Shown piece after piece: positions 22,469 to 30,014 of a stretch of 64,000 bases of DNA (positions are counted from its first letter, which is position 1; each line of letters begins with the position of its first letter). The notes beneath the pieces are model-generated. The model was not told the DNA's origin, made no database searches, and saw only the letters and a list, made by a program, of their open reading frames with translations. The DNA is from Fischerella sp. JS2. GTDB taxonomy: Bacteria; Cyanobacteriota; Cyanobacteriia; Cyanobacteriales; Nostocaceae. Location: assembly GCF_032393985.1 (NCBI RefSeq), contig NZ_CP135918.1, positions 1,426,001-1,490,000 of the forward strand. Direction: 5' to 3'. The translations under genes and the position numbers were made by a program.

Positions 22469-22794
22469 CTCTGCTTTGTTGCAACTGGTGCAAAGTTTTT
22501 GTTTTTAGTGATTTTACTGTTGCTATTAGTCATTTTATTAACAATAAATAAAATAGTTCTAAATTTAGAATGTAGATTTTTTGCAAGGAAATGTTACGAA
22601 TTTAGCCCAAAAAATACTAGAAACTAGTTAAATTACTGAACAGCATAGACGCGCAATTGATTTGCCGCAGAAGGCTACAGTTATTAAGGGCATAGTGGAG
22701 ATTTATACCCAGTAATGAAACTGATAACTGATAACTATTAACTGTTAAATATGCTACTGCTATTCAATTTTTATTGCTCAAGGCCATTGCAATT

Positions 22795-25700
22795 ATGCAC
22801 GCCTTAACTCAGTTGGTGTCTCTGCCGTCAATAGATACCGTAATTGATTTTTCGCCTCTAACTGTAACACCAGACACATCTTTACTAGAGGCTGTGGCAC
22901 TAATGCATCAGCAGCAAGCGAGTTATGTCTTAGTGGTAGAGAATTTGTTCACAGGTAAAATGCGGGTGTTGGGATCGTTTACAGATCAAGATGTAATGAG
23001 ATTACTCTGTGATAAATTTGACTTCCAAGCTACCACAATTTCGCAAGTAATGACTATTACCGCAATCTCACTTAGGTATAGTCAGATAGAAGTAAATAAT
23101 ATTACTGTTTTATTGACATTGTTACAGCAGTATCAATTGCCTTTACTACCAATAGTTGATAAAGAAAACCAACTAGTTGGAATAGTTACATTCAAAACTA
23201 TTTATCAGGCACTACAAATTCCCCCCAGTTCTCCCTGTCAGCTAATAGACACCATCGAACAATTACGTTTATTCGAGTCAGCCGTTGTAAATGCTAACGA
23301 TGCCATTATCATCACCACAGCTGATGCACTTGATGAACCTCTTGGGCCACGAATAGTGTATGTAAATGAAGCCTTTACCCGGATAAGCGGTTGGTCAAGT
23401 GCTGAAGTTATAGGTAAAACACCACGAATTTTACAAGGGGAATTAAGCGATCGCACCCAATTAAATCATATTCGCATTGCCCTACAAAATGGCTTACCAG
23501 TTAGAGCAGAAATAATTAATTACCACAAAAATGGCTCTACATATTGGGTTGAAATTAACATTGTTCCCATAGCAGATGCACAGGGCAAAATTACTCACTT
23601 TGTTTCTGTACAAAGGGATATAACTGAACAAAAGCAAGAAAATATAGAACTAGAAACAAGAGTAGAGGAACGAACAAAAGCTTTACAAAAAAGTGAAGAA
23701 CGCTTTCGCTTCTTAGCGGAATCTATTCCCCAACAAGTATGGATTGCTCAGCCAGATGGCAATGTAGAGTACATCAATCAACGCATACAAAATTACTTGT
23801 GCTGTACACAAGAAGAAATTTTGGGCTGGAAGTGGCAAAATTGGGTGCATCCTGAAGATTTATCTAAATGTTTGGATGCTTGGCAAAAATCTATAGTTAC
23901 AGGTGAACCATTAGAATTAGAATTTCGCTGGTATAGAGTAACTGACAGAACATATCGCTGGCACTTAGTACGTGCTGTACCACAACGTGATCAGGATGGG
24001 AAAATAGTAAATTGGTTCGGCACAAATACAGATATTCATGACCTCAAAGTGGCAGAGGCTGCATTGCGGCAGACTCAAGCACAGCTACAGGCTATTTTAG
24101 ATAATTCTCCAGCGATTATTTATGTTGTCGACACTCAAAACAGATTTTTACTTATTAATAGCGAGTATGAAAAGGTGTTTAAATTTTCCAAACACCAGGT
24201 TAAAGGCAAAAGTATATACAAATTTTTCCCGCACCACATAGCTGATGAGTTTGCGAGGAATAATCGCAATGTTCTTATTACTGGTAAGCCAACAGAAGCA
24301 GAAGAAATTGTTCCCCAAGATGATGGGTTACATACCTATCTTTGTGTCAAGTTTCCTTTAAAAGATGCCAATGGTTTTCCCCGTGCCATTTGTGGCATTT
24401 CCACAGATATTACTGATCGCAAACGAACAGAAGCAAACCTGCGTTTGCGCGATCGCGCGATCGCTGCTAGTAGTAACGGCATTGTAATTTGTGATGCGAG
24501 GCTGCCAAACTTACCAATAATCTATGCTAATCCTGCCTTTAAGTACATTACTGGTTACTCTCCAGAGGAAGTCATCGGTCGCAGTTGTCGTTTTCTGCAA
24601 GGAAACGATACCAATCAACCAGAAATACAAGAATTAAGAAACGCTATCCAGCAAGCAAAAAATTGCACCGTTGTTTTACGTAATTATCGTCAAGATGGTA
24701 GTTTATTTTGGAATGAATTAAGTATTTCTCCGGTGTTTGATACTGATGGCAATTGCACTCATTATGTTGGCATTCAAAACGATATTACCGAGCGCAAGCA
24801 GTCAGAAATAGCATTAATGGTATCTCAACAGCGCCAGCAATATTTACTGTCCGCAACTCCAGCCATTATTTATACCTGTAAACCTTATGGAGATTATGAC
24901 ATTACCTTCATGAGTGAGAATGTTACCGCCATGCTGGCTTATAAAGCGGAAGAATTTACAGAAAATTCTAAGTTTTGGAGCGATCGCATCCATCCAGAAG
25001 ACAAATCCCATGTTTTTACGGAAATGATAAACCTATTCCAGCAGGGAGAATATATTTGTGAGTACCGTTTTTTACACAACAATGGTAATTACATTTGGGT
25101 ATACGATCAATCCAAGCTTGTACGGGATGATACTGGTAAACCCCTAGAAATTGTCGGTTATTGGACAGATATTAACAAACGCAAGCAATTAGAAGAGGAA
25201 CTAAGAACAGCATTGGAAAAAGAAAAAGAACTTAACGAACTAAAATCTCGTTTTGTCACTGTCATCTCTCATGAATTTCGTACACCGTTGAGTACCATCC
25301 TTTCTTCTTCAGAGTTAGTAGAACACTATCATCACAAATGGACAGAAGAAAAATTACTCTCCCATATACATCGCATTCAAAACAGCGTTAAACATATGAC
25401 TGACATGTTAAATGATGTGTTGGTAATTGGTAAGGCAGAAGTGGGAAGAATAGATTTTAAACCGACATTACTAGATTTGGTTGAGTACTGCCGTGACTTA
25501 CTCCAAGAATTGCAACAGGATGTTAATACAGAACATGCGATCGCCTTTGACTGTGAATACGAATCTATATCCTGCCACATGGATCAAAAATTGTTGGGAC
25601 ACATTCTCAGAAATTTACTCACGAATGCAATTAAATATTCCTCCAACAACAGTATCATCACATTTACTCTCACCTATCAAGCAGGTCAAGTTGTTGTATT

Positions 25701-25920
25701 TGAAATAAAAGACAAAGGAATTGGTATTCCCCAAGAAGATTTACCGCGTTTGTTTGAATCTTTCCATCGTGCTGCAAATGTTGGCAATATCCCTGGTACT
25801 GGTTTAGGACTAACAATTGTCAAAAAATGTATAGATTTACAGCACGGTGAAATATTTGTGAACAGTGAAGTGGGAGTAGGAACAACATTTACTGTCATCT
25901 TGCCATTAAAAAATCTTTAG
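22795..25920 (+). CDS. CBS-multiPAS sensor histidine kinase with a LOV-type PAS
   Basis: 1041 residues from the ATG at 22795. Order: two CBS motifs (about 10-145); PAS1 (160-280, 'GKTPRILQGELSDR'); a short coiled segment; PAS2 (300-425); PAS3 (430-550); PAS4 (555-680); PAS5 (690-810); HisKA with 'VISHEFRTPLSTI' (His826); HATPase with 'LTNAIKYSS', 'DKGIGIPQEDL' and 'GTGLGLTIVKK'. PAS4 has 'GRSCRFLQGND' (Cys598) and 'NYRQDGSLFWNEL', which match the flavin-adduct cysteine and FMN-contacting Asn positions of LOV blue-light domains. It is soluble, without membrane helices. The REC-EAL gene follows after 73 bp and is the probable partner. CBS motifs often sense adenosine nucleotides, so light and energy input may be combined. 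Confidence 0.9.
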   Translation: MHALTQLVSLPSIDTVIDFSPLTVTPDTSLLEAVALMHQQQASYVLVVENLFTGKMRVLGSFTDQDVMRLLCDKFDFQATTISQVMTITAISLRYSQIEVNNITVLLTLLQQYQLPLLPIVDKENQLVGIVTFKTIYQALQIPPSSPCQLIDTIEQLRLFESAVVNANDAIIITTADALDEPLGPRIVYVNEAFTRISGWSSAEVIGKTPRILQGELSDRTQLNHIRIALQNGLPVRAEIINYHKNGSTYWVEINIVPIADAQGKITHFVSVQRDITEQKQENIELETRVEERTKALQKSEERFRFLAESIPQQVWIAQPDGNVEYINQRIQNYLCCTQEEILGWKWQNWVHPEDLSKCLDAWQKSIVTGEPLELEFRWYRVTDRTYRWHLVRAVPQRDQDGKIVNWFGTNTDIHDLKVAEAALRQTQAQLQAILDNSPAIIYVVDTQNRFLLINSEYEKVFKFSKHQVKGKSIYKFFPHHIADEFARNNRNVLITGKPTEAEEIVPQDDGLHTYLCVKFPLKDANGFPRAICGISTDITDRKRTEANLRLRDRAIAASSNGIVICDARLPNLPIIYANPAFKYITGYSPEEVIGRSCRFLQGNDTNQPEIQELRNAIQQAKNCTVVLRNYRQDGSLFWNELSISPVFDTDGNCTHYVGIQNDITERKQSEIALMVSQQRQQYLLSATPAIIYTCKPYGDYDITFMSENVTAMLAYKAEEFTENSKFWSDRIHPEDKSHVFTEMINLFQQGEYICEYRFLHNNGNYIWVYDQSKLVRDDTGKPLEIVGYWTDINKRKQLEEELRTALEKEKELNELKSRFVTVISHEFRTPLSTILSSSELVEHYHHKWTEEKLLSHIHRIQNSVKHMTDMLNDVLVIGKAEVGRIDFKPTLLDLVEYCRDLLQELQQDVNTEHAIAFDCEYESISCHMDQKLLGHILRNLLTNAIKYSSNNSIITFTLTYQAGQVVVFEIKDKGIGIPQEDLPRLFESFHRAANVGNIPGTGLGLTIVKKCIDLQHGEIFVNSEVGVGTTFTVILPLKNL

Positions 25921-25993
25921 TTGTTTATTGATAGTCGTGATCGGAAATAAAAATACTAACTACTAACTACTAACCATCAATAAATAGGAAAAT

Positions 25994-27193
25994 ATGACTA
26001 AAATTTTAGTAATTGAAGATGAAAATGCAGTTCGTGAAAATCTTGTTGAATTACTGGAAGCAGAAGATTTTGAAACTATTGATGCTGCTAACGGTAAATT
26101 AGGGATAAATTTAGCTCTAACTGAAGTTCCTGATCTGATTTTGTGCGATTTGATGATGCCAGAACTTGATGGTTACGGTGTATTAACCACTTTACGGCAA
26201 GAACCGCTAACTGCAACGATTCCGTTTATTTTTCTGACTGCAAAAGCAACTAAAGCTGACTTTCGTCAAGGCATGGAATTGGGTGCGGATGACTATCTCA
26301 CAAAACCATTTACTCGTGCTGAATTATTGAGTGCAATTGATGGGCGTTTACAAAAACAAGCTACTTTAAAACAATATTTTTCTACTAGTCCACAACTCAA
26401 AGCTTTTAATTCAGAAATGTTGGTTGTCAAAAATATTTTACACGGTGCGATCAATCAAGGACACTTTCGACAATTTTTTGTTGAGTATCAACCACAAGTA
26501 GATATTCATTCTGGAAAAATCATTGCCGCAGAAGCTTTACTTAGATGGCAAAGTCCAGAATTAGGAAGAGTCGCTGCTTCTGAATTGATTCCTTTAGCAG
26601 AGTCTACAGGGTTAATAATTCCTATTGGTGAATGGGTTTTAGAAAGTGTTTGCCAACAAAATCAAACTTGGCAAAATACTGGTTATTCTCCCTTGTGTAT
26701 AGCTGTTAATTTTTCAGCACGTCAATTTACTCAACCTGATTTGATTAAAAAAATTATTCAATTTTTAACCGCTAATAATTTGGAACCACATTACTTAGAA
26801 TTAGAACTTACAGAAAGCTTAATTATGCAAGATATTAATACCGCGATCGCTACAATGAATGAATTGCGTTCCTTGGGTGTAAAAATAGCTGTTGATGATT
26901 TTGGTACAGGCTACTCTTCTTTAATGTATCTCAAAAAATTACCTATCAATAAGTTAAAAATTGATCGTTACTTTATTCATAATGTTGTCAACGACCCACA
27001 AAAAGCAGCTATTACAACAGCATTGATTCAAATGGGTCATAATCTCAATCTTCAGGTGATTGCTGAAGGAGTAGAAACTGAATTAGACTTAGAGTTTTTA
27101 CGGCATCATAACTGTGATGCTATGCAAGGTTTTTTGTTTAGTCGTCCTGTTGCAGCATCTGAATTTCAAAAGTTTTTAAGTAGGTCAGCTTAA
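25994..27193 (+). CDS. Response regulator with EAL domain, c-di-GMP phosphodiesterase
   Basis: 399 residues: receiver domain (1-120) with phosphoacceptor Asp52 in 'LILCDLMMPELDGYG' and the conserved Lys in 'DDYLTKPF'. An EAL domain (145-395) follows with 'AEALLRWQSPELG', 'IAVNFSARQF', 'LELELTESLIM', 'AVDDFGTGYSSLMYL', 'LKIDRYFIHN', 'IAEGVET' and 'AMQGFLFSRPV'. All metal-binding and catalytic positions of active EAL enzymes are visible, so it should hydrolyse c-di-GMP to pGpG. No GGDEF domain is present. Location next to the LOV/CBS kinase suggests phosphorylation by it. c-di-GMP typically governs sessile/motile behaviour in cyanobacteria. Confidence 0.93.
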   Translation: MTKILVIEDENAVRENLVELLEAEDFETIDAANGKLGINLALTEVPDLILCDLMMPELDGYGVLTTLRQEPLTATIPFIFLTAKATKADFRQGMELGADDYLTKPFTRAELLSAIDGRLQKQATLKQYFSTSPQLKAFNSEMLVVKNILHGAINQGHFRQFFVEYQPQVDIHSGKIIAAEALLRWQSPELGRVAASELIPLAESTGLIIPIGEWVLESVCQQNQTWQNTGYSPLCIAVNFSARQFTQPDLIKKIIQFLTANNLEPHYLELELTESLIMQDINTAIATMNELRSLGVKIAVDDFGTGYSSLMYLKKLPINKLKIDRYFIHNVVNDPQKAAITTALIQMGHNLNLQVIAEGVETELDLEFLRHHNCDAMQGFLFSRPVAASEFQKFLSRSA

Positions 27194-27698: not shown

Positions 27699-30014
27699 AT
27701 GGCAAAGCGATCGCTGCAAGCATCAGCTGAGGGGATGAGAAAAGCCAAACAAGCTTTTCGACGTAAAGGTTGGACTCAGGAATATCTAGCTGGTGAAGTA
27801 GGTTTAGAAACTCGTCAGCCGATTTGGAAATTCTTTACTGGTAAAGCTATTGATCGTCAAGTTTTTCATGAAATTTGCTTAGTCTTGGGATTAAATCCAG
27901 AAGAAATTGCTCAACAGCCCCCTGATGAATCAATTTCTTGGGAAACAATCTCAGAAAATACTTCAGATATTGATGCTTTAGTACAAAAAGCACGCTTTGC
28001 CAATTACGAAAAAATTCAAGCCCAGTGTGGAACTCTACATCTTTTGGATATTGCTCGACCTATTGTTTTAGATAATCTTTATGTAGAAGTCAATATATTT
28101 GAGGAAATCACCAGTAAAAGATGGTTGGAAATTACTGACTTACAAAGGCTAGATTCTAATAATTTTGATCGTTTTAATTTAGATAAGTTTAATCAGCAAC
28201 GAATTCCTGGTTTAGAAGCAGTTGCCAAATACTCTAAATTAATGGTATTTGGCAAAACAGGCTCTGGTAAAACCACATTTTTACAATCGCTTGCAGTTCT
28301 TTGTAATCAGGGAAAGTTTAAATCAGATTGTCTACCCATTTTTGTTAGCCTCAAAAGCTTAGCTGAAAATATTAGCGATAATAAACAAATTAGTTTATTA
28401 CAATATATTTATCAGGAATTTAATGATCAGGGTATTTCCATCTCAGAAATTTCCACCATATTTGCTCACGGAAAAGCATTAATATTACTAGACAGCCTAG
28501 ATGAATTAAATGAAGAAGAAAGCAATATAATTATTAGAGAAATTCATAATCTTTCTGAAAAATTTTATAAAAATATAGTAATTATTACTTGTCGCCTTGC
28601 TGCTCAGCAATATCAGTTTAATGGTTTTACTGAAATTGAAATAGCTGATTTTTGTAAATCGCAAATTGTAACATTTGCAGATAAATGGTTTGTAGCTGTG
28701 GCAAAAAACTCTCTTTGGGAGGGAAAAGCAAAGGCTGCTGAGTTTATAAAAAAATTAGAATTGCCAGAAAATCAGCAAATTTTAGAGTTAGCAACAACAC
28801 CACTTTTACTAAATCTTACTTGCTTAGTATTTCAATTTTTAGGTGACTTCCCAGCTTTACGCTCAGAACTTTATAAGCAAGCATTAGAATTGTTGTTAGT
28901 GCATTGGGATGAAGCCAGAAGAATCAAAAGAGATGAATTTTTTCGCAATTTATCGTTGCTACATAAAATTAAATTACTTTGTCGTTTAGCAGCCACTACA
29001 TTTACTCAAGGAGATTACTTTTTTCCAGCAACTAAAATCCAATCACTCATAACCGAATATCTGCGTCAGCTTCCCCATGCATCTACAGATTCAGAGGCGT
29101 TGCAACTTGATAGCAGTGCTGCATTAAAAGCTATTGAGGCACAACACGGTTTGTTGCTAGAACAAGGACGAGGTATTTATTCTTTTTCGCATTTAACATT
29201 TCAAGAATATCTAACTGCTAGAGAAATTGTTGCTGCTGGAAATTCCCAAACTCTGCAAAATTTTGTTACTCATATTGGAGAAAAACGTTGGCGAGAAGTT
29301 TTTTTGCTAGCTGCGGGAATGATGCAGCCTGGAGATGAATTATTGTTATTAATGAAACAACAAATTGATAATTTAGTGACTTCAAATCAAAAATTGCAGA
29401 AATTTCTGAAATGGTTAGATGAAAAAACTTCCATAATCAATGCATCTTATTATCCAGCTAGTATGCGCGCTTTTTATTTTACTCTTGCTCTTCCCCCAGA
29501 TTATCCTCTTGCTTACAATCAAAATTTGGCTTTGTCTTTAGATAGTAGATTAGCAGGAAATTTAGCTATTGATTTAGCTTTAGATCTGGCATTAATCCAT
29601 GCCCTAGCTGTGAGTTTGAGGATAACTACTAATATTTTCTGTCAACGCTTATCTGCGATCGCACTTGCTCTTAACTTACAACACCTACTACAGAAGCGTC
29701 CTCTTCTCCAACAATCACTACAAAATCTACACGATGAACTGCCGACAACCCAACAAAGTAGACATGCTTTAAAAAGTTGGTGGCAGGAAAAGGGAGAAAC
29801 ATGGACTAGTAAATTACGAAATCTAATTATTAGCGATCGCCAAATAGGACATGATTGGCAGTTTAATGAAAATGAATTACAAATATTACAGCAGTATTGG
29901 AATGCTAACAAAGTTTTAATAGATTGTCTAAATCATGCTGGTAATGTTAGTTTGACAACAGTCAAATCAATAGAAAAAAATTTGTTTTTAATTGATAGAC
30001 ATCATTCATTCTGA
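27699..30014 (+). CDS. NACHT-domain NTPase (bacterial NLR-like), candidate immune protein
   Basis: 771 residues. An N-terminal HTH-like module (10-68: 'RRKGWTQEYLAGEVGLETR') precedes a NACHT STAND NTPase. Walker A is 'VFGKTGSGKTTFLQ' (about 183-196), Walker B 'ALILLDSLDELNEEE' (about 261-275), then 'VIITCRLAAQQYQF' and 'FSHLTFQEYLTAREI'. The C-terminus (about 690-771) has 'LISDRQIGHDWQFNE', 'LQQYWNANKVLIDCLNHAG' and 'VSLTTVKSIEKNL', the helical ending typical of cyanobacterial NACHT proteins and of bNACHT/SNaCT-type defence proteins. No nuclease or TIR effector is visible, so the HTH-like module or the C-terminus may be the effector or sensor. Defence function is inferred, not shown. Confidence 0.85.
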   Translation: MAKRSLQASAEGMRKAKQAFRRKGWTQEYLAGEVGLETRQPIWKFFTGKAIDRQVFHEICLVLGLNPEEIAQQPPDESISWETISENTSDIDALVQKARFANYEKIQAQCGTLHLLDIARPIVLDNLYVEVNIFEEITSKRWLEITDLQRLDSNNFDRFNLDKFNQQRIPGLEAVAKYSKLMVFGKTGSGKTTFLQSLAVLCNQGKFKSDCLPIFVSLKSLAENISDNKQISLLQYIYQEFNDQGISISEISTIFAHGKALILLDSLDELNEEESNIIIREIHNLSEKFYKNIVIITCRLAAQQYQFNGFTEIEIADFCKSQIVTFADKWFVAVAKNSLWEGKAKAAEFIKKLELPENQQILELATTPLLLNLTCLVFQFLGDFPALRSELYKQALELLLVHWDEARRIKRDEFFRNLSLLHKIKLLCRLAATTFTQGDYFFPATKIQSLITEYLRQLPHASTDSEALQLDSSAALKAIEAQHGLLLEQGRGIYSFSHLTFQEYLTAREIVAAGNSQTLQNFVTHIGEKRWREVFLLAAGMMQPGDELLLLMKQQIDNLVTSNQKLQKFLKWLDEKTSIINASYYPASMRAFYFTLALPPDYPLAYNQNLALSLDSRLAGNLAIDLALDLALIHALAVSLRITTNIFCQRLSAIALALNLQHLLQKRPLLQQSLQNLHDELPTTQQSRHALKSWWQEKGETWTSKLRNLIISDRQIGHDWQFNENELQILQQYWNANKVLIDCLNHAGNVSLTTVKSIEKNLFLIDRHHSF

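Follow-up and report, generated by a model that had tools for sequence, protein, structure and literature searches.

A multi-sensor LOV histidine kinase adjoining a REC-EAL regulator in Fischerella sp. JS2, and repeated changes of its adduct cysteine among orthologues

The window analysed here, a 64,000-nucleotide stretch of the Fischerella sp. JS2 genome, holds two neighbouring genes on the forward strand: a multi-sensor histidine kinase and, 73 bases beyond its stop codon, a response regulator in which a receiver (REC) is joined to an EAL domain. The open reading frame of the kinase (22774-25920) opens with an in-frame TTG and contains an ATG at 22795, from which its residues are numbered. 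A Pfam profile scan finds five PAS stretches, CBS, HisKA and HATPase_c on the chain, in the order CBS-CBS-PAS1-PAS2-PAS3-LOV-PAS5-HisKA-HATPase_c, with no match to REC or Hpt; the two CBS stretches were resolved when residues 1-152 were scanned separately. An earlier note, made from the letters of this DNA, had placed two CBS motifs and four further PAS domains on the chain of a LOV kinase, and this layout is borne out. The features are as follows.

22795..25920, + strand: multi-sensor histidine kinase, 1041 aa from the ATG (Pfam scan, translation)
22795..23244, + strand: CBS pair, residues 1-150 (two CBS stretches, E 3.4e-14)
23269..23643, + strand: PAS1, residues 159-283, a LOV-like sequence in which Pro replaces Cys
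24457..24804, + strand: LOV domain (PAS4), residues 555-670 (sequence search, structure match)
24586..24588, + strand: codon TGT of the adduct cysteine, Cys598 (motif position, codon comparison among Fischerella)
24862..25194, + strand: PAS5, residues 690-800, between LOV and kinase core (Pfam)
25210..25917, + strand: HisKA (His826) and HATPase_c, residues 806-1041 (Pfam, conserved residues)
25994..27193, + strand: REC-EAL response regulator, 399 aa (Pfam, REC Asp52, full EAL set)

The first CBS stretch shows the pattern G-x-x-T-x-x-D as G60, T63 and D66. PAS1, with the motifs GKTPRILQG and NYHKNGSTYWVEI and Pro at the Cys position, is 40% identical to the LOV domain of the same chain. No tRNA was found in the 64-kb window. 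Terminator-like sites number 5, slightly more than the shuffle mean of 2.7 (sd 1.8).

PAS4 is a real LOV domain. The motif GRSCRFLQG begins at residue 595 and puts the Cys at 598, with Ser at 597 where the usual NCRFLQ motif has Asn; NYRQDGSLFWNEL begins at residue 630 and supplies N630 and N640, and the Gln is residue 661. Cys598, Asn630, Asn640, Gln661, Arg599 and Arg615 are all in place, the last five at offsets of +32 (N630), +42 (N640), +63 (Q661), +1 (R599) and +17 (R615) from Cys598, and we take these five to be the counterparts of the AsLOV2 flavin contacts. For YtvA, the named LOV set is C62/R63/N94/N104/Q123 in the portion of the source available (PMC4682037). A phmmer search of the domain against PDB sequences returned LOV proteins (best E 1.9e-36), and the best PDB matches of its AlphaFold2 model (mean pLDDT 89.6) are LOV crystal structures (TMq 0.90, rmsd 1.2-1.6 A). 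Because both the structure and the sequence search return LOV proteins, a chance motif is ruled out. Residues, phmmer and model thus agree with the earlier assignment of PAS4 as a LOV domain with an adduct cysteine and both Asn, and structure prediction, a check proposed at that time, gave a match to solved LOV structures with a TM of about 0.9.

The domain unites a PAS/LOV fold, the adduct Cys, the Asn/Asn/Gln set and the Arg pair, as expected of a LOV photoreceptor, and a single chain joins it to HisKA/HATPase with the His and the N, D and G boxes, as in LOV histidine kinases broadly defined. Against the NCBIfam model for blue-light-activated histidine kinases (NF052306) the chain scores 229.6 bits, below the curated cut-off of 450, and lies outside that equivalog, though its mode of action may be that of a LOV histidine kinase. 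The presence of Cys598 places the protein outside the Cys-less LOV* class as defined by Yee et al. This is the sole canonical LOV domain found in the 7.02-Mb genome, and judged from these features the protein is probably a blue-light LOV kinase in Fischerella sp. JS2.

The next gene gives Pfam matches to REC (97 bits) and EAL (241 bits). Its receiver has D9, E10, D52, T82 and K104, and its EAL domain E180, N239, E271, E274, D301, D302, K322, D324, E358 and Q378, residues to which we assign the usual catalytic roles by assumption. The EAL set is complete, as the earlier note had claimed, and with a receiver Asp as well the protein is a predicted REC-EAL c-di-GMP phosphodiesterase; no other full-length EAL found in the genome lacks an adjoining GGDEF domain. 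Like PvrR and RocR it is matched as REC-EAL over its full length (NCBIfam PvrR, NF052596, residues 2-397; PDB RocR 3sy8, aligned over 4-396), but its PvrR score of 226.3 bits is far below the curated cut-off of 580, and the likeness covers the regulator alone, without partner kinases.

Sampling of 192 genomes of the family yielded 114 matches, of which 112 were analysed; a Cys-less locus (G158, the same as L063) and a fragment (G294) were left out. The REC gene adjoins the kinase on the same strand in 106 of the 112 orthologous loci, with the matched ends a median of 24 nt apart, which bears out the pairing that had been claimed. Kinase H826 is kept in 112/112 orthologues and N944 and D973 each in 111/112; REC D52 is kept in 106/106, EAL E180 and N239 in 103/106, and K322 and Q378 in 102/106, the remaining three or four loci being unfilled at these columns. 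The CBS region, plausibly an energy input, is matched in 97 of the 112 loci, among which G60 is present in 96, T63 or S63 in 92 and D66 in 80. LOV-to-kinase spacing is 387 nt shorter, about one PAS unit, in 10 of the 111 loci with an aligned LOV-position domain. The kinase and REC-EAL are a conserved two-component unit.

Narikawa reportedly described three LOV domains of Anabaena in 2006. The closest known systems are CdgK-CdgS, SL2 and RmcA, each described here from the accessible part of its source. CdgK (All2875) and CdgS (All2874) of Anabaena sp. PCC 7120 form a kinase/c-di-GMP-enzyme operon in which FMN binding is reported for PAS2 of CdgK, with a suggested role in sensing blue light, and phosphorylation of CdgS is proposed to raise its diguanylate cyclase activity (PMC9927289). 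The two pairs share a multi-sensor histidine kinase and a REC-output c-di-GMP enzyme; however, CdgS ends in GGDEF (synthesis) and the partner here in EAL (hydrolysis), and CdgK, a transmembrane hybrid kinase, contains CHASE, GAF, two REC and Hpt domains, no CBS being mentioned in the available description, whereas the present kinase shows no match to REC or Hpt. Membership in CdgK-CdgS was rejected because the output differs. In SL2 of Synechococcus elongatus a canonical FMN-binding LOV domain controls c-di-GMP hydrolysis by EAL in a cyanobacterium, as proposed here, but LOV, GGDEF and EAL share one chain, without kinase or phosphotransfer (PMC8846402). RmcA of Pseudomonas aeruginosa is a multi-PAS protein in which a LOV-like PAS controls an EAL phosphodiesterase, and which takes light and redox inputs; the Cys is missing from that PAS, as from most orthologues here but not from the window protein, and RmcA is a one-component GGDEF-EAL protein (PMC8846402). 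All4897, a phosphodiesterase of Anabaena PCC 7120, was considered as a possible counterpart (PMC13075795, seen in part). Among the literature search matches listed, some from searches broader than the pair, there was no paper on the kinase/REC-EAL pair; the earlier view of the combination as uncharacterised holds to that extent, but an analogous operon, CdgK-CdgS, is published (PMC9927289).

Cys598 is kept in 18 of 111 orthologues, replaced in 91, mostly by Phe, and unfilled in 2, one of the 112 loci having no aligned LOV-position domain. One of the two congeners compared has lost it: F. muscicola PCC 7414 has the codon TGT at 598, whereas F. thermalis PCC 7521, whose LOV domain is 92-94% identical, differs by one base and reads TTT (Phe). 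Of the earlier interpretation, the LOV call, the pairing and the active sites are supported, but Cys-adduct light sensing is therefore not the shared function of the pair and belongs at most to this lineage and some others. Loss of the Cys and Asn positions in close homologues had been named beforehand as evidence against that interpretation, and the Cys is indeed gone in the 91 orthologues; N630 is kept in 71 of 78 Cys-less domains. LOV domains at other loci keep the Cys in 22 of 25 cases, a control that started from 29 loci, four of which were dropped as members of the orthologous family, and that is biased towards Cys, its loci being best-scoring matches to a Cys LOV. Two control loci, L075 and L087, both with Cys, carry a stretch of 36-37 aa with 68-75% identity to the kinase core. 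They may therefore belong to related kinases, and the stricter count without them is 20 of 23.

On the best tree (110 rows, 109 with a LOV state, 17 Cys) there are nine changes of Cys state, six of them forced by well-supported branches; with regain forbidden, 11 losses are required, counted on 92 rows with a LOV identity of at least 50% (15 Cys), where the fewest changes are about eight. One Cys form (G216) is nested among Phe forms, possibly a regain within the family. Compensation by a second Cys-type LOV on the same chain was rejected: a search of the 112 open reading frames, five of which are open at the N end, with the pattern C[RSKL][FMIL][LM]Q found none in the Cys-less orthologues. 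No account of Cys loss in cyanobacterial LOVs appeared among the literature search matches listed.

Purifying selection still acts on LOV domains without the Cys, their median dN/dS being 0.112 over 30 pairs, which argues against decay to a dead domain. Among three Fischerella the LOV dN/dS is 0.081-0.123 against 0.176-0.190 for the whole chain, and only PAS1 is as low; since it is equally low in pairs with F. thermalis, which lacks the Cys, adduct photochemistry may not be the selected feature even in this genus. The ratio of LOV to kinase-core dN is 1.04 in Cys-less pairs (30), 1.07 in mixed pairs (2) and 0.64 in Cys/Cys pairs, so that the domain is faster relative to the core without the Cys, on a comparison of only four Cys/Cys pairs.

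What the Cys-less domain does admits two main alternatives. That it is an ordinary PAS, a relay or a binder of some other ligand without flavin, the Cys forms being the remaining photoreceptors and the Cys surviving mainly where it belongs to the genome's only LOV, has in our estimate nearly an even chance. The GRNCRFLQG loop and R615 have decayed in Cys-less domains, in keeping with such a PAS: R599 and R615 rank 109 and 108 among 112 columns in conservation, and R or K stands at 615 in 11/77 Cys-less against 13/15 Cys-bearing domains. At several loci (e.g. L271-L273, L275, L276) an unrelated PAS occupies the LOV position. The domain is the only LOV-class domain of its genome in 13 of 18 Cys-bearing but 23 of 77 Cys-less genomes (p 0.002 by Fisher's test, which takes no account of phylogeny), in a survey of 95 of the 112 genomes, the other 17 mostly having divergent, replaced or partial LOV-position domains. 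Placed on the tree, however, Cys state can be set against other LOVs, or against flavin-site columns, in only five independent well-supported pairs, too few to reach 0.05 (the test spanned nine such columns, and its outcome leaves aside L601 and N630); the loss in F. thermalis, moreover, occurred in a genome where the search found no other LOV. The strong conservation of N630 and of Q661, kept in 75/77 Cys-less domains (identity at least 50%, on the tree), also sits poorly with an ordinary PAS.

These same residues, together with N640, kept in 47/77 of those Cys-less domains, favour a flavin sensor independent of Cys in all orthologues, with redox sensing or photoreduction as the conserved job and the Cys as an optional light channel in some lineages. 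R599, Q602, N630, N640 and Q661 are jointly kept in 20/77 Cys-less domains (18 Phe, 1 Ile, 1 Arg) against 9/15 Cys-bearing ones, and F. thermalis has this whole set plus R615 and a dN/dS without relaxation. There are precedents in the Cys-less YF1, VVD and BAT-LOV* flavin semiquinone or hydroquinone forms (PMC4682037) and in the PASd of RmcA, which has no Cys, each as given in partial sources. R599 and R615, putatively on the phosphate side, are nonetheless among the least conserved columns, and flavin binding may be weak or absent in many Cys-less members; we consider a flavin sensor throughout the family unlikely. That the kinase and REC-EAL are unrelated and merely adjacent seems very improbable: adjacency is the one link from which the pairing is read, 164 places in the Fischerella genome match the kinase chain and thus represent many other kinases, and promoter-like sites are no commoner than in shuffles (19 against a mean of 19.4), a result that speaks neither for nor against co-transcription, but same-strand adjacency recurs throughout this one family, and four of its six exceptions lie at contig ends.

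Our preferred reading, to which we give somewhat better than even credence, is a blue-light LOV kinase in this strain within a c-di-GMP phosphodiesterase system whose common function needs no adduct. The CBS pair, PAS1-3, LOV and PAS5 would jointly set the state of the HisKA/HATPase core, His826 would exchange phosphate with Asp52 of the adjoining regulator, and the EAL domain would hydrolyse c-di-GMP. Since the flavin and adduct site is complete in this strain, blue light is expected to produce the Cys598-flavin adduct, which would shift the kinase/phosphatase balance through PAS5; with four other PAS domains and the CBS pair on the chain, light may be a minor input, and sequence does not tell whether it would raise or lower c-di-GMP. 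In the wider family the adduct step would be dispensable: most orthologues examined lack the Cys, yet keep the LOV-derived domain under purifying selection and the catalytic residues of both the kinase and REC-EAL. Their domain would have to act in some other way, as a flavin sensor working by redox or photoreduction, as a PAS that binds a ligand, or as a relay module. More tentatively, and with rather more doubt than belief, we suggest that one orthologous LOV domain, tied throughout to a single c-di-GMP phosphodiesterase regulator, has alternated repeatedly between a Cys-adduct photoreceptor and a Cys-less sensor under purifying selection. Light chemistry would then be an exchangeable input to an older function that needs no light, is perhaps redox sensing and still runs.

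Natural Cys-less LOV* domains (BAT-LOV*), which share the LOV residue signature minus the Cys, number about 70 entries, according to the part of the source available (PMC4682037); the F. thermalis orthologue qualifies, with nine of nine named residues, but those are single GenBank entries, whereas the forms with and without Cys described here are orthologous and belong to one conserved gene pair. Natural LOV signalling without Cys, and the descent of photoreceptors from redox flavoproteins, have so far been argued, in the same partial source, from engineered mutants and individual Cys-less proteins (PMC4682037). The kinase/REC-EAL pair is widespread in related cyanobacteria, and most relatives examined have lost the Cys and kept the downstream parts, a natural experiment on Cys-less sensors. 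Near-identical orthologues with the same locus and partner differ as Cys and Phe by one base, and with a defined, predicted output, c-di-GMP hydrolysis, such a pair makes the question of Cys-less signalling directly testable; F. muscicola PCC 7414 and F. thermalis PCC 7521, which form one, are named culture-collection strains.

On sequence comparison, only a minority of orthologues have the adduct cysteine in the kinase's LOV domain, although the c-di-GMP two-component pair is in other respects tightly conserved. The parts themselves are familiar; the surprise is how rare this cysteine is across orthologues, beyond the coordinates first flagged. The genome carrying the window is a single contig of 7,020,691 bases, in which the features concerned are:

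22774/22795-25920, + strand, kinase ORF, 1041 aa counted from the ATG
23269-23643, within the same kinase, PAS1, LOV-like, carrying Pro (GKTPRILQG) where the Cys would be, like BAT-LOV*, the natural LOV domains lacking the adduct Cys
25994-27193, + strand, REC-EAL protein, 399 aa

Pfam bears out the architecture proposed in the earlier note, recognizing CBS (two stretches once residues 1-152 were scanned separately), five PAS stretches, HisKA and HATPase_c in the kinase, and REC and EAL in the next gene. The kinase falls short of the NCBIfam cut-off for the blue-light histidine kinase equivalog, as does the REC-EAL protein of that for PvrR. The chain 22795-25917 passes the NCBIfam YtvA-family cut-off (264.8 versus 250, in two stretches) with a differing architecture, and its best NCBIfam match (25210-25917; residues 661-1039) is to a scytonemin-biosynthesis sensor kinase, at 341 bits versus a cut-off of 865. 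The window genome holds three full EAL places, one fragment and 13 GGDEF places, the REC-EAL protein being the sole full EAL without GGDEF alongside.

Sampling 192 genomes of the window strain's family gave 114 with a strong match, and 112 loci were analysed. A REC(-EAL) gene lies downstream on the same strand in 106 of these, with a median gap of 24 nt between matched ends (at most 40 nt in 71/106); in four of the 106 the match reaches no further than the receiver or a portion of the EAL. The six remaining loci comprise four at contig ends (genomes G168, G159, G211 and G233), a divergent match in G170, and locus L172 of G191, possibly a broken locus, where the kinase match is partial and no adjoining REC-EAL was found, though the contig end is distant. 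Kinase His826 is kept in 112/112 loci and receiver Asp52 in 106/106; Glu180 and Asn239 of the EAL are present in 103/106, and Lys322 and Gln378 in 102/106, the other loci having these columns unfilled. Asp324 is more variable (89/106, with Gly in 12). Position two of the EAL signature (26531-26539) is Ser in 88/106 orthologues and Ala in just nine, the window's own protein among them. The CBS pair is the other input common to most loci (97/112).

In the window strain, PAS4 is by sequence and predicted structure a genuine LOV domain, with flavin binding predicted. The Cys598 and two asparagines (N630 and N640) previously pointed out are indeed there, Cys598 within GRSCRFLQG, together with Q661, R599 and R615. 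A phmmer search of PDB sequences matched LOV proteins, led by 9vf7 (MrLOV of Meiothermus ruber, E 1.9e-36) and including PF5-LOV, PpSB2-LOV chimeras and YF1. The AlphaFold2 model has core block-mean pLDDT of 91-96 and superposes on LOV crystal structures with TMq 0.90 and rmsd 1.2-1.6 A. No second domain more than 40% identical to it was found by protein search of the window genome; the CRFLQG codon pattern occurs once, at the kinase gene; a reversed control pattern likewise occurs once.

Across orthologues, the outcome that the earlier note named as refuting, loss of the Cys/Asn positions in close homologues, is seen for Cys598. Of the 111 orthologues whose LOV-position domain could be aligned, just 18 have Cys at residue 598; Phe stands there in 62, Ser in 8, Asn in 6 and Tyr in 5, and 12 have another residue or an unfilled column. 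The position is Cys in 22 and Ser in three of 25 LOV domains from other loci in cyanobacteria, a set biased towards Cys because it comprises the best matches of a phylum search to a Cys LOV. A named search found Cys in LOV domains of Planktothrix, Microcoleus and Symplocastrum, and eight more non-orthologous loci, of Leptolyngbya-, Myxacorys-, Phormidesmis-type and others (L258-L262, L265, L270 and L274), are PAS1-like, with Pro or Ala at the Cys position. A tree of kinase plus REC-EAL requires nine changes of Cys state, six of them forced by well-supported branches; a loss-only model needs 11 losses. The Cys form GQNCRLLQG at L202 (G216) stands amid Phe forms, making regain there possible. 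Several Nostoc-type loci (among them L271-L273, L275 and L276) have a non-LOV PAS at the LOV position, e.g. LGKTPFDLMSPE, and retain kinase and REC-EAL.

Without the cysteine, the LOV-position domain is still under selection. Among three Fischerella, dN/dS is 0.081-0.123 for LOV and 0.065-0.107 for PAS1, among the lowest of the chain, versus 0.176-0.190 for the whole chain. (At E 1e-40, a CBS-PAS1 query has relatives, matching mainly across PAS1, in 42 of 148 genomes sampled from the order.) Across 30 non-overlapping Cys-less pairs, LOV has a median dN/dS of 0.112 and the LOV/kinase core dN ratio is 1.04, versus 0.64 in four Cys/Cys pairs; the domain is therefore neither dead nor unchanged. 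Where Cys-less domains have 50% identity or more, N630 persists in 71/78 and Q661 in 75/78, and four other residues are rarer than in Cys-bearing domains: R599 33/77 versus 10/15, R615 11/77 versus 13/15, Q602 47/77 versus 14/15, and N640 47/77 versus 15/15. R599, Q602, N630, N640 and Q661 are jointly kept in 20/77 versus 9/15. We read this as two fates of Cys-less members, some apparently fit to hold flavin and many apparently not.

Among 95 genomes searched for LOV-class domains at E 1e-25, the domain is the genome's sole one in 13/18 Cys-bearing versus 23/77 Cys-less genomes (Fisher p 0.002, uncorrected for relatedness); with phylogeny considered, five supported independent pairs are too few for any significance. 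F. thermalis is a counter-example to loss alongside other LOVs: codon 598 is TGT in the window strain and F. muscicola PCC 7414 and TTT in F. thermalis PCC 7521, where no other LOV-class domain was found, the next matches being its own Pro-type PAS1 (41%) and a PAS (29%).

The kinase inputs probably tune phosphate exchange between His826 and Asp52 of the REC-EAL protein, which would alter c-di-GMP hydrolysis; in the window strain, the Cys598 adduct would be the route for blue light. The closest published logic is CdgK-CdgS of Anabaena (PMC9927289): FMN binding is reported for PAS2 of CdgK, which is co-transcribed with a c-di-GMP enzyme whose activity phosphorylation is proposed to increase. 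Its output is opposite to that of the pair. Within one chain, according to PMC8846402, a LOV domain controls an EAL phosphodiesterase in SL2, and a Cys-less LOV-like domain does so in RmcA. PMC4682037 describes signalling by Cys-less LOV* through flavin reduction and a single substitution inverting the light response of LOV kinase YF1, so blue light might raise or lower the pair's activity. Neither the pair nor its Cys loss was reported among the literature matches listed. The next long ORF 3' of the pair, 27699-30014, encodes a NACHT NTPase whose C-terminal domain is NCH2, possibly a STAND protein of defence type.
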